64,000 bases of DNA from Cellvibrio sp. 79 (lineage in GTDB: Bacteria; Pseudomonadota; Gammaproteobacteria; Pseudomonadales; Cellvibrionaceae): assembly GCA_003056245.1 (NCBI GenBank), contig MVDH01000006.1, positions 248,001 through 312,000 of the forward strand. The letters are read 5' to 3'. Position 1 is the stretch's first letter; each line of letters begins with the position of its first letter. Under the pieces are notes generated by a model. The model was not told where the DNA came from. It did not search any database and saw only the letters and a program-made list of their open reading frames with translations. The position numbers were made by a program, and so were the translations under genes. This document shows, piece by piece, positions 21,641 through 28,573 of this stretch.

Positions 21641-21660
21641 TTTTTTGCTAAAAATCTAAA

Positions 21661-21688
21661 AAAATCGGCCCTTATGGGCCGATTTTTT
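21661..21688 (+). terminator. Rho-independent terminator
   Basis: aaaatcggcccttatgggccgattttttt. Confidence 0.85.
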
Positions 21689-21785
21689 TCCTTTCCTGGG
21701 AAACGGAAAAAAACCTATTTCAAATGAAAATGTATAGACTAATAATTAACAGCTACCGCGGATATATGAGGTGGATTGAAGACTT

Positions 21786-21959
21786 ACGATTTTTCTTAAA
21801 AATTCCTATTACATTATTTGAATTCAAAAAACGATGTCACCGTAAGCCGACCCGTCGCAGGGTTGGGGTCAAACGATTTTTCTTAAAAATTCCTATTACA
21901 TTATTTGAATTCAAAAAACGATGTCACCGTAAGCCGACCCGTCGCAGGGTTGGGGTCAA
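21786..21959. repeat. Perfect 87-bp tandem duplication (21786-21872 and 21873-21959)
   Basis: acgatttttcttaaaaattcctattacattatttgaattcaaaaaacgatgtcaccgtaagccgacccgtcgcagggttggggtcaa occurs twice head-to-tail without mismatch. Confidence 0.97.
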
Positions 21960-22677
21960 AATTATACGCGTTCCCGATTTTCCCGCTGTGAAGGCTCGTT
22001 CCCCTGTACATGAGCAATCGATTAAATACCGCATCGAATGAGGCGATCTCTTCAAATTGATCGGTAGAGCCATGGATATAGCCTTCCGGGTATGCCTCTT
22101 CTGAAGGGTATCGTTCTTGTATTTTTTCGGCGTAACGGGGATAGCGTTGCTCATCAACATATTCAAAGTTCGTTGGCCGATGCCGATACAACGAGGTTCC
22201 CGTATCCGGAACCGATTGCAGATAATGCACAAACGCCAAACCCTTGCGCGACAGCGAATCGAAATGCGGGATTCGCTGCAATAAACCCAGATCCTCTTGG
22301 CGCGTTGTGATTATCGAAAATGTGGAAACAGCCGTCTTGATTTGCCTTACTTCCAAATGAAAAAACTGTTCCATAAAGAAACCAAAATGCTTAACAAGCG
22401 CCAGGGTGTATTCCCGCGGAATTTGCATACGAACGCCAGGATAAAACGAGTCTGCGCGCGCAAACTCATTGATCTGTACTGCACGTTCTTTTAACGCCAA
22501 AGCGCCTTTCAAATAGTTATCAACGAGTAGAACTTCCTGTTGTTCATTGCCAACTTTATAGCATTCAATGTTGGCATCCTCGCACAGCCCGTACTCAATC
22601 GGTCCCATACCATTCTCGATATTGTTAACGCCCAATACTGTTAGTGCCCAATACGTCCTGTAAAAACCAAAAGACAA
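21901..22677 (-). CDS. DUF6445-like protein of the TonB receptor/SapC/halogenase cluster
   Basis: 258-aa ORF after the halogenase-like gene; true start may be 22608 (MGPIEYGLCED). RGTSLHSGKI...NFDPNPATGRLTVTSFFEFK C-terminus. Family call from memory. Confidence 0.7.
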   Translation of the reverse strand: MSFGFYRTYWALTVLGVNNIENGMGPIEYGLCEDANIECYKVGNEQQEVLLVDNYLKGALALKERAVQINEFARADSFYPGVRMQIPREYTLALVKHFGFFMEQFFHLEVRQIKTAVSTFSIITTRQEDLGLLQRIPHFDSLSRKGLAFVHYLQSVPDTGTSLYRHRPTNFEYVDEQRYPRYAEKIQERYPSEEAYPEGYIHGSTDQFEEIASFDAVFNRLLMYRGTSLHSGKIGNAYNFDPNPATGRLTVTSFFEFK

Positions 22678-22689
22678 ACAAACCTGTTG

Positions 22690-24198
22690 TTAAACGGGTG
22701 GCCTTGCCTTGCAGAATTGATTGATAAATTCTTGATGGGACGGCATTGCCGTTACTTTTTTATGGACGTCGTCCTTCAGGAAGGCCAGGAAACCTTTTAG
22801 TTCCTTTTCTTCCATCATGTCGACAATCGGATGGTAGGCGGTCGGCATAATCCCCTGCCCCATCATGACCTGGACCCAGGAATCGTTTAAAAATAATTCT
22901 TTGTCTTCGAGCGTAATGGCACCGGTGTCTTTGAATAATTGTATGCGGCGCGCCAGGATCTCCGGTATTTCCATATTCTTGCAATAACGCCAGAAATCGG
23001 TGTCATCCCGTTGGGTTGCGTGGTAATGCAACACCACAAAATTACGGGCGCGATCCATTTCTTCACTGGATTGCCGGTTAAATTCATCCACATTGGACAG
23101 CGAAATTTCATGTTGTGGAAAATACCGCAGCAAGCGATAAATCGCCGACATCGCCAAATGGATTGAAGTGGATTCAAGCGGCTCAATAAAACCGGAGGCA
23201 AGCCCAACCGCAATACAGTTTTTGTTCCAGGATTTTATGCGGCGGCCTGTTTTGTATTTAATCACGCGCGGTTCGGTCACCGGACGGCCTTCCAGATTGT
23301 TCAACAGCGTGTGGATGGCTTCATCATCGGAAACATGCCGGCTGGAAAAAACCAACCCATTTCCTGATCGGTGTTGCAGCGGAATACGCCACTGCCAGCC
23401 AAAGTCGTGCGCGATTGCCTGGGTGTAAGGCCGTGGCGAGCGCACGTTTTCAGTTTGCAGCGCAACCGCCGAATCGCAGGGAAGATAATGACCGTAGGGC
23501 ACATAGGGTGTGTTTAACGCACCATCGATCAACATGGCTTTGAAGCCGGTGCAATCCAGGAATAAATCGCCTGCTATTTCTTGCCCGTCTTTCAATAACA
23601 ACGACGTGATATAACCATTCTCTGGCGAAATATTGACTCTCTCAATAAACCCTTCAACATGCTTCACGCCGAGTTTGGTAGAAAACGCTTTCAAATAATC
23701 TGCATATAAATTGGCATCAAAGTGATAGGCATAATTAATCCCATCATGTTCACCGCTACACTTTTCCAAACGTGCGGCTTTGGATTCAGGGCAGTAATCC
23801 CCAAAGGGAACATTGATACCGTATTTTTTTCCTGCAAACCAAAAATGCTGGAATTGGCAGGCCCAGCATTCTTTTCCGGTGAGCCCAAACGAGTGAAAGT
23901 ATTTATCGCCTTTGTTAGCCCAGTGACTGAACTCAATACCTAATTTAAACGTGCCTTGAACCTGGGCCATGAGCTCCTGGTCATTAATGCCCAACAGCTT
24001 ATGAAATACGCGCAAGGTGGGAATCGTTGCCTCGCCCACACCAATTCGCCCAATGTCGGGCGATTCAATCAGGGTGATATTCAGGTTTTTTCCGAGCACC
24101 TTGGAAATAGCGGCTGCCGCTAACCAACCCGATGTTCCGCCGCCCGCAATAACAATGTTGCGAATAGTGTTCATTGCTGTATGTTCGTTCATATCCAC
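22690..24198 (-). CDS. Tryptophan halogenase-family flavoprotein
   Basis: IVIAGGGTSGWLAAAAISK (FAD), GVGEATIPTLR, GTFKLGIEFSHW, and the WxWxIP motif (GWQWRIPLQHR). Confidence 0.93.
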   Translation of the reverse strand: MDMNEHTAMNTIRNIVIAGGGTSGWLAAAAISKVLGKNLNITLIESPDIGRIGVGEATIPTLRVFHKLLGINDQELMAQVQGTFKLGIEFSHWANKGDKYFHSFGLTGKECWACQFQHFWFAGKKYGINVPFGDYCPESKAARLEKCSGEHDGINYAYHFDANLYADYLKAFSTKLGVKHVEGFIERVNISPENGYITSLLLKDGQEIAGDLFLDCTGFKAMLIDGALNTPYVPYGHYLPCDSAVALQTENVRSPRPYTQAIAHDFGWQWRIPLQHRSGNGLVFSSRHVSDDEAIHTLLNNLEGRPVTEPRVIKYKTGRRIKSWNKNCIAVGLASGFIEPLESTSIHLAMSAIYRLLRYFPQHEISLSNVDEFNRQSSEEMDRARNFVVLHYHATQRDDTDFWRYCKNMEIPEILARRIQLFKDTGAITLEDKELFLNDSWVQVMMGQGIMPTAYHPIVDMMEEKELKGFLAFLKDDVHKKVTAMPSHQEFINQFCKARPPV

Positions 24199-24229
24199 GC
24201 TCTTTTTTACTCATTGTTCGTAGGCTAAC

Positions 24230-24946
24230 TTACTTCATTTTTGCGTTTTTGATATCAATCAACGTTTGTATGTTATTCACCGAGTCAGCAACGTTATAGG
24301 CAAGCGACAAGAAACCGGATTTGTGTAATTCAACTATCGCCTCATTTTCCAATGCCATCAGCTTTTCAATATGCACGGTATAACCGGCATCAAATTGAAA
24401 CGTAGTTCCATGGCTCAAGTTAATTTCCAACCTGACCCGCTCCAGAAGATCGTATTTTAAAAAAGCGTCAATCATGGGCTCAAGTAGTTCTGAACCTTTG
24501 TGCCGCGCGAACAATACATCCCTGACTTCATCCAAGGTAGTGGAGCTGGTGCCATCCTCATTAAACAGTGCGGGTGTTGCGTGTTGCTGGATTCTTGAAT
24601 CATTCAGGTCCACATAAGCGACGAGCCGTTGTTCGGTTTCCTGTTGCTGAAGCCCGATCATAAAAGGACCTTGCTTCATCGCGAGCGGAATGTAACGCGT
24701 GCGCCAGGTTGAGTTTTCGTCCAGGAAGAGATTTTCATGTTGCTCAAACCCTAACAAAACGACTGGCAAAAAGCGGCCGGTTTCAGAATCTTTGCGAAAG
24801 AGAATGGGGTATTCCCGTTGAGCCCTGGCAAATTCGTTGGGCATTATCATCACGGCGCCTGTCTGGTGCCCGTATTCAGCGCCGTACTTTTCTGTGTACC
24901 CAAGGGTTTTATGTTGCTCAACATTTAGCGGTTGAAAGTTTTTCAT
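24230..24946 (-). CDS. SapC family protein
   Basis: MKNFQPLNVEQHKTLGYTEKYGAEYGHQTGAVMIMPNEFARAQREYPILFRKD...LPVVLLGFEQHENLFLDE. Confidence 0.88.
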   Translation of the reverse strand: MKNFQPLNVEQHKTLGYTEKYGAEYGHQTGAVMIMPNEFARAQREYPILFRKDSETGRFLPVVLLGFEQHENLFLDENSTWRTRYIPLAMKQGPFMIGLQQQETEQRLVAYVDLNDSRIQQHATPALFNEDGTSSTTLDEVRDVLFARHKGSELLEPMIDAFLKYDLLERVRLEINLSHGTTFQFDAGYTVHIEKLMALENEAIVELHKSGFLSLAYNVADSVNNIQTLIDIKNAKMK

Positions 24947-24987
24947 TTTATTGTCCGTTGTGCTTGCTTGACCTGAAATGTGTGACC

Positions 24988-25021
24988 TAAAAAAATGCCG
25001 CTCATAGAGCGGCATTTTTTT
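24988..25021 (-). terminator. Rho-independent terminator between TonB receptor and sapC
   Basis: aaaaaaatgccgctcatagagcggcattttttt. Confidence 0.85.
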
Positions 25022-25041
25022 CTAACATCAACTGAAAACGA

Positions 25042-28000
25042 TTAGAAGTTGTAACGTGCAGACAGCGCGTAACGAGCTTCCAATACATCGACGTACCTTA
25101 CCTGGTTTTTAGTACGACCGTAGGTTTTCTTATCCTCACCCAACACGTTAGTACCTTCCAAAGCCACAGTGAAATCATCAGTGATTTTGTAGCCTATGTT
25201 GAAGTCAACCTGGCCGTAGTCTTCGGTAAACTCAGGCTCACCACCACCGGCGTTCGGATTACTCAGGAACTTGTCACGCCAGTTGTACGCAATACGTGCT
25301 TGCCATTGGTCTTTTTCATAGATACCAATCAGGTTAGCCGAATCACTCAAGCCCGCTAACGCAAATTGACTAGCCGCACCCGGTTCTGCAGAGAGGTCAA
25401 AGCTAAAATCGCTATTCACGATCGTATAGTTAGCCTGGATACCAAAACCGCTGTCACCGAAGAAGTGTTGACCGGCGAATTCCCAACCGTTCAGCACCGC
25501 GTCGTTAGAGTTTACCGGTATGGTAGTAACGTTGGTAACACTTGGATCACCCGCTACCGCTACGATATCTACACCGTCCTTATACTGCAGGTAACCCGCC
25601 TCAGTGTTCGACGCAAGACCGCCAACGCCGCACAATTGGGCTGCTGTAGTATTAATACAGCCATTATCGGTGCCGTTCATTCGAGCAACCTGCTCGAACA
25701 AATTCCGCTCGTTCACTGGCAGGCCAGCCGCTTTCAATGCATCCACAGCTTCGCGCGCGCGCAAACCATTACTTGGATCCAATGTACCGGCGTACGTCAC
25801 ATCAATTTCTTCAGTACCAATAAAGTTAGGTACGCGCTTATCGAAGAAACCAATAGACACATAATCGGTATCGTTGAAGTAATACTCAACCGAGAGGTCG
25901 ACGTTGTTAGACTCAATCGGGTTCAGCTTAACGTTACCGTTGCCAATAGTACCCAGTGAGCCACCAGCCAACAGTGGGCCACCTCTTGGTGGATTGCCTG
26001 CCGCGCCTTCCTGAAGATCATTGAAGTTTGCACGGGAAATCGTTTTACTGGTGGATGCACGCGCAATCAGTTCATCACTAAGATGGAAAGTTAAGTCCAC
26101 ATTAGGAAGCACATTATCGTAATCGTAAGTGCTAACCGTGTAAGGACGCGCGCCAGCTACACCAATAGCCTCATTATTGAAGTCCCTATCGGATTGCCAG
26201 GTGAGCTTTCTTGGCGAAACCCGTGAGTAAGACTCTACATCGGTAGTTTCATAACGAAGGCCAGCTGACACATCCACCGCTATACCACCCAACTCCCCGG
26301 TGAGGTTGGTTTCAATATAGGCGGCCATGACGTCTTCAACAATCTTACGGTCAGTGCTGTCAATCGGGTTGGCGGCATAAGCAGTTTTACCCGGAGACTC
26401 AGCAAACATTTGTCTGGCTACGCCATTGAAGTTAGTCACGCGCACGCCGGTAATGTTTGAGGTCGCTTTATCCCCATTGTTACCCGCCTTGGCAAACAAC
26501 TCTTTGGCTCCCGCTGACAGGTTAGAGTTATAACCATCGAAATAATCGTTGAAGTTAATGAACTCAAACCAGTTAGGGTTAATATCACCCGCGGCTGCAA
26601 CACTCCAGCCGCCTTTCATGGTGGCATTGCCAATGTCAGATTGCTTTTGAATCGATTCAGTTTGCAGTGAACTGATACCAAAGTTGATAGAGCCCGAATC
26701 CGAGAACTCATATTTACCAGAAACCTTGGCTTCTTCAACATCTTGCCACGAACGCGCATTCACCAACTGGCTAATGGTAGAACCTACATCGCTCTTCTGG
26801 ATAGCACCGTTTTTCACAACGCTTGCAATCAGTGGCATGTCGCCGCTCATATCCAAACCTTGAGCCAGCAAGGTGTTTACACCGATACCCAGCGTAATGT
26901 TTGAGCCTGGTGCATTGTAAGGGGTTGCGCTTGATTCAGCCTTGTGAGCATCAAACGCAAAGCTCAACTCATCAGTCGCTTGATAGGTCAGGTTAAAGCC
27001 GACGTCATCCAATTGGTTCTCAACGGAACGTAACGAGTTTTTCAGCGCGATATCGCGAGGTGCGCCGCTTGGATTCGCCTGCCACACATAAAGAGGGGAT
27101 TTACTAATGGGGCTGTTATCCCACTGCACCGCATTCGTTGGCCATGCACCATCAGAGAACCATAACGAGTAAATCGCGTGTTGCGATTGGGTTTTGGTGG
27201 TGACACTCAGCGCATCCAGTGTGGCGGTGATTTTATCGTTAGGTCTGTATTGTAATGTCAACAAGGCGTTGTCACGCTCACGCGATGTATCCGTGTGGAA
27301 GAAGTTCGCTTCTTGTAAACGGGTAGCCAAGTCACCGGTTCCTGGCTCCAAATCCGTGGTTCCGGGTATGAAACTGGCCTTGGTTGGCTCGTTAACGACA
27401 ACAGCACCTGGCGTATAACCGCTGTTGAATATATCGCCGCCGGAGTAGCGTTGTTGCTTATCACCCCAGCCACCATTTGCAAAGCCGGAGCGCCCACTGT
27501 CACGCTCTTGATGAGCTAATGACAAGGATGCACCAAACGTCTCATTAGACCAGCTAACGAAACCCGATGCTTCCGGCGTGACGTCGTCACCAATATCGTT
27601 AGACTCATCCATTAGCGCCTTAGCGCCAATCGATGCCTTAAATCCTTCATAATCGAATGGCTTGGCGGTAGAAAGATTTATCGTTGCACCAATACCACCG
27701 GTAGGAACACTTGCCTTCCCGGTTTTGTAAACTTGCACACCTGAAACAGACTCAGAGGCAATGTTGCTCATATCAAATGAACGAGTACTCTCAACATCAC
27801 CGCCTTCAATAACGGCAGCTGATGACAATTGACGACCATTCAAAGTAACCAGGTTGTACGCAGGACCAAAACCACGGGCAGTGATCTTCGCGCCTTCACC
27901 ATTATTACGATCAATAGAAATACCGGTGATACGCTGCAACGATTCAGCCAGGTTTGAGTCCGGCATTTTACCGAGATCTTCTGAAGAGATCGCATCAACA

Positions 28001-28185
28001 ACACCCGCTGCGTCACGTTTGACATCTACTGCGCGAGTCAAAGAACCGCGAATACCTGTTACCGTTACCTCTTCAACAACTGAATCATCTTGAGCATAGG
28101 TCATACCACTGAAGCTGGCAGCAACGGCAGCAGAAGCAACTGCGGCGGCCAGGAGTTTTTTCTTAAATGTGATTGTGTTTTGCAT
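25042..28185 (-). CDS. TonB-dependent receptor (Xanthomonas/Caulobacter-type)
   Basis: Signal peptide; EEVTVTGIRGSLTRAVDVKRDAAGVVDAISSEDLGKMPDSNLAESLQRITGISIDR; terminal ALSARYNF. Confidence 0.95.
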   Translation of the reverse strand: MQNTITFKKKLLAAAVASAAVAASFSGMTYAQDDSVVEEVTVTGIRGSLTRAVDVKRDAAGVVDAISSEDLGKMPDSNLAESLQRITGISIDRNNGEGAKITARGFGPAYNLVTLNGRQLSSAAVIEGGDVESTRSFDMSNIASESVSGVQVYKTGKASVPTGGIGATINLSTAKPFDYEGFKASIGAKALMDESNDIGDDVTPEASGFVSWSNETFGASLSLAHQERDSGRSGFANGGWGDKQQRYSGGDIFNSGYTPGAVVVNEPTKASFIPGTTDLEPGTGDLATRLQEANFFHTDTSRERDNALLTLQYRPNDKITATLDALSVTTKTQSQHAIYSLWFSDGAWPTNAVQWDNSPISKSPLYVWQANPSGAPRDIALKNSLRSVENQLDDVGFNLTYQATDELSFAFDAHKAESSATPYNAPGSNITLGIGVNTLLAQGLDMSGDMPLIASVVKNGAIQKSDVGSTISQLVNARSWQDVEEAKVSGKYEFSDSGSINFGISSLQTESIQKQSDIGNATMKGGWSVAAAGDINPNWFEFINFNDYFDGYNSNLSAGAKELFAKAGNNGDKATSNITGVRVTNFNGVARQMFAESPGKTAYAANPIDSTDRKIVEDVMAAYIETNLTGELGGIAVDVSAGLRYETTDVESYSRVSPRKLTWQSDRDFNNEAIGVAGARPYTVSTYDYDNVLPNVDLTFHLSDELIARASTSKTISRANFNDLQEGAAGNPPRGGPLLAGGSLGTIGNGNVKLNPIESNNVDLSVEYYFNDTDYVSIGFFDKRVPNFIGTEEIDVTYAGTLDPSNGLRAREAVDALKAAGLPVNERNLFEQVARMNGTDNGCINTTAAQLCGVGGLASNTEAGYLQYKDGVDIVAVAGDPSVTNVTTIPVNSNDAVLNGWEFAGQHFFGDSGFGIQANYTIVNSDFSFDLSAEPGAASQFALAGLSDSANLIGIYEKDQWQARIAYNWRDKFLSNPNAGGGEPEFTEDYGQVDFNIGYKITDDFTVALEGTNVLGEDKKTYGRTKNQVRYVDVLEARYALSARYNF

Positions 28186-28544: not shown

Positions 28545-28573
28545 CAAAAAAACCCGACTGGGTCGGGTTTTGT
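28545..28573 (-). terminator. Rho-independent terminator of dps-like gene
   Basis: aaaaaaacccgactgggtcgggtttt. Confidence 0.8.

Follow-up and report, generated by a model that had tools for sequence, protein, structure and literature searches.

A conserved TonB receptor-linked cassette of SapC, a flavin-dependent halogenase, and the predicted dioxygenase DUF6445 in Cellvibrio sp. 79

The analyzed stretch of the Cellvibrio sp. 79 genome, 64,000 nucleotides of contig MVDH01000006.1 (hereafter the window, whose positions are used as coordinates throughout), carries a block of four minus-strand open reading frames (ORFs) at 21901-28185, which encode a TonB-dependent receptor of the TonB-Xanth-Caul type, a SapC family protein, a flavin-dependent halogenase (FDH), and a DUF6445 protein. 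The linkage of the FDH, SapC, DUF6445, and receptor genes is real, conserved, and far beyond chance. An earlier note had described four consecutive genes forming a cluster; all of these ORFs are present and their families were matched by Pfam and NCBIfam, so that the gene content stands, but in its canonical form the cassette comprises five genes, the additional one, for a Cupin_8/JmjC oxygenase, being absent from the window locus. As to what the cassette does, we tentatively favor, as a possible rather than a probable reading, a cytosolic tailoring module that acts on the receptor precursor or on a peptide or aromatic partner shared by receptors. New in this work are an ordered cassette of five genes, a chemical assignment for DUF6445, and an exclusive SapC-receptor clade; the gene families themselves are known, and annotators are, to our knowledge, familiar with their co-occurrence. 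A literature search, with a coverage that leaves most subscription journals outside, found no paper mentioning both 'tryptophan halogenase' and 'SapC'.

Conservation and genomic contexts of the cassette

Conservation was assessed by a scan of named genomes led by DUF6445, which yielded 80 loci and which therefore gives the frequency of these partners beside DUF6445 and not the frequency of DUF6445 beside each of them. The earlier note had made its interpretation depend on a conserved linkage, and such a linkage emerged far above chance: 52 of the 80 loci hold the genes for the receptor, SapC, the Cupin_8/JmjC oxygenase, FDH, and DUF6445, almost always in this order. This five-gene cassette occurs in the genera Rheinheimera, Paraglaciecola, Catenovulum, Gilvimarinus, Microbulbifer, Pseudoxanthomonas, Lysobacter, and Luteimonas, and 44 receptor operons read exactly SapC-JmjC-FDH-DUF6445. 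In the window, the receptor, SapC, FDH, and DUF6445 genes follow the cassette order on one strand. The Cupin_8/JmjC gene is absent from the position between SapC and FDH both in the window and in its eight closest relatives (Cellvibrio and related assemblies with DUF6445 identities of 75-89%), where the order is receptor-SapC-FDH; thus the window locus represents a JmjC-less variant of the wider cassette. Some of these eight relatives have an extra FDH gene, and one of them has a second SapC gene and a JmjC gene downstream. The HxD...H triad of the JmjC companion itself is kept in each of the 69 members examined.

The genes that accompany the cassette across genomes include GH94 with GH5 and a GPH symporter, GH3 with the mannonate dehydratase ManD and an acetylesterase, the xylulokinase XylB, and GH97. 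Cassette-type receptors adjoin xylan, β-glucan, α-galactoside, and amino-sugar genes (the nag-type genes at one own-genome locus, L040, being read by eye), and since the same cassette accompanies receptors beside such differing glycan genes, a substrate restricted to one glycan is unlikely. The window operon adjoins no glycan-active gene, and its locus does not qualify as a polysaccharide utilization locus; it also adjoins no aromatic-catabolism gene, and there is no biosynthetic cluster near the window FDH. These contexts bear on an alternative that we regard as rather unlikely, in which oligosaccharides bearing aromatic groups (hydroxycinnamate-decorated hemicellulose, for instance), or a related aromatic compound, enter through the receptor and have their aromatic group modified in the cytosol by the FDH and the 2-oxoglutarate (2OG) oxygenases. 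The xylan and mannonate/xylulose genes that adjoin cassettes in several genomes are consistent with this route, as are the open substrate pocket and the halogenation of free indole by the FDH family (PMC5945002); however, no common aromatic is obvious for the β-glucan, α-galactoside, and amino-sugar contexts of the same cassette, the window locus lacks any adjoining glycan or aromatic-catabolism gene, and SapC is also paired with exoproteins that import nothing.

Predicted activities of the halogenase and DUF6445

The FDH gene (22690..24198, minus strand; 502 aa from a GTG start, with an in-frame ATG slightly downstream) encodes a protein of the BrvH/Xcc4156 type that matches the Trp_halogenase family (PF04820, E=3.5e-179) and has as its best solved relatives 6y1w (Xcc4156, 8.7e-165), 9luq (2.1e-151), 6frl (BrvH, 4.1e-133), and PrnA (5e-95). 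The earlier note had suggested, from three motifs, that this flavoprotein may be a true FAD-dependent halogenase. The alignments locate all three on the minus strand: the FAD-binding motif GGGTSG at residues 19-24 (24127..24144), the catalytic Lys85 within GTFKLGIEF (23944..23946), and WQWRIP, an instance of the WxWxIP motif, at residues 268-273 (23380..23397). The catalytic residues, whose loss or misalignment the same note had named as one of two refuting outcomes, are both in place, with Lys85 aligned to PrnA K79 and BrvH K83, and Glu342 (23173..23175, minus strand) aligned to PrnA E346 and BrvH E349. The Lys and the Glu are invariant in 117/117 homologs collected and in all 17 paralogs of the host genome, and Ser343, adjacent to the catalytic Glu, is also kept in the PrnA alignment. 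Every sequence feature expected of a true FDH is present, and at the sequence level the window flavoprotein reads as a genuine halogenase. A free-tryptophan halogenase of the PrnA/RebH type is ruled out, because the window protein, like BrvH and Xcc4156, lacks the long loop with which PrnA encloses free tryptophan (gap opposite PrnA 440-453).

The closest characterized relatives, BrvH and Xcc4156, have an open active site and are active on indole and not on tryptophan; their native substrate is unknown, and a peptide was proposed by the authors (PMC5945002, PMC7336383). The earlier note had called the substrate and the role of SapC/DUF6445 unresolved, in agreement with this literature on the nearest solved relatives, although the chemistry of DUF6445 can now be assigned from its motif and fold. 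It is quite improbable that the FDH-type protein is instead a non-halogenating flavin monooxygenase, or an oxidative protein maturase in the manner of LodB and QhpG, for which halide use in vitro would be incidental. Such an activity would fit the scarcity of bromide in soil and freshwater, as well as the weak NCBIfam matches to LodB and QhpG, which stay below threshold; however, the scores of these matches are far below the cut-offs (23 vs. 400 and 21 vs. 240 bits), and membership in these maturase families is thereby ruled out. The slow turnover of indole by BrvH (2.5 mU/mg) also points toward a non-halogenating role, whereas the invariance of the halogenase-specific Lys and Glu, together with the abolished activity of the BrvH K83A mutant, argues for halogenation (PMC5945002).

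The DUF6445 gene (21901..22677, minus strand) matches PF20043 (E=3.2e-65). In the alignment of this family, H115-x-D117 and R225 are invariant in 87/87 members and the distal His (H207) is kept in 86/87, with R225 representing the basic residue for 2OG that follows the distal His. The AlphaFold2 model obtained from a 55-sequence alignment (mean pLDDT 97.4) was compared by Foldseek with the PDB, where the best matches were PHD2 (E=5e-5, probability 1.0), NO66, and prolyl hydroxylases (P4H), and nearly all matches with E <0.001 were 2OG-type oxygenases. By motif and predicted fold, a double-stranded β-helix, DUF6445 is a predicted Fe(II)/2OG dioxygenase. Other receptor-FDH loci of the host genome also have 2OG-type oxygenases (2OG-FeII_Oxy_5 at L040 and JmjC_2 at L033), so that receptors accompanied by both an FDH-type enzyme and one or two 2OG oxygenases form a recurring theme.

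Two individual loci add to the picture of these oxygenases. At L040 (9328-11552), a receptor and a WIW-type halogenase are followed by the small 2OG-FeII_Oxy_5 protein, with amino-sugar-catabolism-like genes downstream. At L170 (6090-9118), the DUF6445 gene adjoins a TPR-sulfotransferase gene (Sulfotransfer_3) in place of a halogenase, which suggests that DUF6445 works in other modification settings too.

SapC, the receptor clade, and the proposed client

The SapC gene (24230..25015, minus strand; PF07277, E=1.4e-58) encodes a protein whose AlphaFold2 model has a pLDDT of 96.9 and gave no PDB match below E=0.1, and no solved or viral structural counterpart was found for it. SapC is encoded in 54 of the 369 gammaproteobacterial genomes surveyed, and 18 of the 67 SapC genes whose neighborhood was read (those of the window genome included) lie in receptor-FDH clusters. 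Outside such clusters, 28 of 44 SapC genes have, within 3 kb and on their own strand, an ORF of ≥850 aa, compared with 19 of 149 control ORFs (p=1e-10). Export genes (OEP/HlyD, ShlB) stand beside SapC at two loci examined, and DUF4214 domains were detected in two of the large ORFs; the other SapC-adjacent large ORFs tested gave no clear Pfam match. The SapC tree separates receptor-linked SapC proteins almost completely from the others (3 changes vs. ~17 in shuffles). From the neighborhoods and the tree, we infer that the role of SapC is to serve proteins exported to the cell surface, the receptor being one such kind.

Further SapC loci were noted separately. At eight of them and at similar ones, SapC stands beside ORFs of ~2000-2600 aa with few or no Pfam matches, and genes for type I or two-partner secretion are sometimes present at these giant-ORF loci; the giant SapC-adjacent proteins are probably secreted, and SapC may be associated with an undescribed exoprotein system. 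A solitary SapC gene of the host genome (L042, C11:178317-178988) has no receptor, halogenase, or giant ORF nearby.

The window receptor (25042..28185, minus strand; 1047 aa) matches TIGR01782 (E=5.2e-167) and contains the PF07715 plug and the PF00593 barrel; it has a Sec-type signal peptide, as judged by eye, and a family search for an N-terminal signaling domain gave no match. Sequence searches, combined with 20-kb stretches of the genome, revealed in the host genome (5.7 Mb) 17 full-length FDH paralogs, 6 SapC proteins, 3 DUF6445 proteins, and 29 strong TonB-Xanth-Caul receptors. Twelve receptors adjoin at least one FDH paralog, one gene intervening at L036. Five receptors carry both SapC and FDH; they constitute one clade (SH-aLRT 99) with no other receptor of the genome inside, and the window receptor belongs to this SapC-linked clade. 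The WQW-type and WIW-type classes of FDH are both scattered across several receptor classes. Tight one-to-one co-evolution of FDH and receptor was not found among the paralogs, and the correlation across all 85 pairs (r=0.84) is confounded by species history. Residue W342 of the window receptor, the one conserved Trp specific to the clade, is present in 95% of the dereplicated SapC-clade receptors and in 0% of the unlinked receptors; many other receptor residues are equally clade-specific, and W342 as a modified Trp is only a lead. The number of paralogs also bears on a signaling role, in which the module would make or destroy a halogenated or hydroxylated indole-type signal that reports which receptor is active. 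The acceptance of indole by BrvH and Xcc4156 (PMC5945002, PMC7336383) would be in line with such a signal, but with three to five genes of enzyme type for each receptor and 17 FDH paralogs per genome the signal would be costly, and no sensor or regulator was seen in the conserved cassette, which makes this role highly improbable.

In the tailoring module that we favor, FDH, SapC, and DUF6445 would be located in the cytosol, as no export signal was visible by eye on these proteins or on the JmjC proteins. FDH would use O2, halide, and FADH2 supplied by a general flavin reductase (no gene for which adjoins the window FDH gene), and would halogenate an exposed aromatic group of a large substrate in its open active site, while the DUF6445 dioxygenase would hydroxylate the same or a neighboring target and SapC would aid the exported client as a modifier or as a targeting/chaperone factor. 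The simplest candidate client would be the receptor precursor, modified before its export; a peptide or an aromatic compound that these receptors share as a partner would also serve, and either choice would be more economical than any one glycan. A more specific proposal, in which the TonB receptor itself or some other exported protein of the cell surface is halogenated and hydroxylated by the cassette before it is exported, appears unlikely.

Several observations weigh against a receptor-directed module. At least three FDH paralogs of the host genome have no receptor within ~9 kb, and the distances among the own-genome FDHs and among receptors are uncorrelated (Mantel r=0.13, p=0.15). Tryptophan is not enriched in FDH-adjacent receptors (1.50% vs. 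1.62%, p=0.81), and W342 is found in only 14% of the FDH-only receptors. Finally, the bromination of indole by BrvH takes place at C3, and none of the C3-substituted indoles tested was accepted, a regiochemistry that speaks against peptidyl tryptophan as the target of this enzyme (PMC5945002).

Locus architecture and comparison with known systems

The intergenic gaps between the receptor, SapC, FDH, and DUF6445 genes are 26, 31, and 12 bp, respectively, with the starts as listed; the probable start of SapC is the ATG at 24946, and the most likely start of DUF6445 is the ATG at 22608 rather than the TTG at 22677, because the resulting 235 aa is the length common to its closest relatives. Minus-strand terminator-like hairpins were detected by a hairpin scan on both flanks, namely 3' of the DUF6445 gene (21658..21689; 14 pairs and a T run) and upstream of the receptor gene, in the interval that separates it from Dps (28549..28571). 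Given the short gaps and these flanking hairpins, the four genes likely form one transcript; the region has 13 terminator-like sites vs. 8.5 +/- 2.5 expected, so that the hairpin calls are only suggestive. A hidden precursor gene of the RiPP type within the operon is ruled out by the small size of the gaps. The operon is flanked upstream by genes for Dps and an acetyltransferase and downstream, on the opposite strand, by one for an aldo/keto reductase; all of these look unrelated to it. An exact two-copy tandem duplication of 87 bp (21786-21960) extends across the 3' end of the DUF6445 gene; as the gene ends with a stop codon (21901-21903) inside the right-hand copy, the left copy is a downstream non-coding remnant, and the duplication looks recent.

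FDHs of the BrvH/Xcc4156 group, which were crystallized and assayed while their native substrate stayed unknown, now have a fixed set of genomic partners, comprising one TonB receptor clade, SapC, and one or two 2OG oxygenases, and the question of their substrate thus becomes directly approachable by experiment. If the receptor were the target, the cassette would represent a new type of modification for surface proteins of bacteria, and enzymatic protein halogenation would be a routine modification of receptors in many glycan-feeding Proteobacteria.

Among known systems, SapC takes its name from an S-layer-associated gene of Campylobacter fetus; the window protein is a clear member of the family, in this case with a TonB receptor as its neighbor. 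DUF6445 has the fold class and the HxD...H...R signature of PHD2/EGLN1, NO66, and prolyl 4-hydroxylases, and its TM-scores of 0.44-0.48 and identity of 11-13% to PHD2 place it in the same superfamily and in another family. PrnA and RebH belong to the same family as the window FDH and have the same catalytic residues, but the window protein lacks their long Trp-covering loop and a biosynthetic cluster nearby. The peptide halogenase MibH was cited by the Xcc4156 authors as an analogy for a peptide substrate of an open site (PMC7336383); in contrast to that system, no precursor-peptide gene fits the 12-31 bp gaps of the window operon. The closest counterparts are BrvH and Xcc4156, which resemble the window FDH in the FAD motif, the WxWxIP motif, the catalytic Lys and Glu, and similarity over the full length, and which differ in that indole activity was measured for both, whereas the window protein is known from its sequence; in all three, a short loop in the 450 region would leave the active site open.

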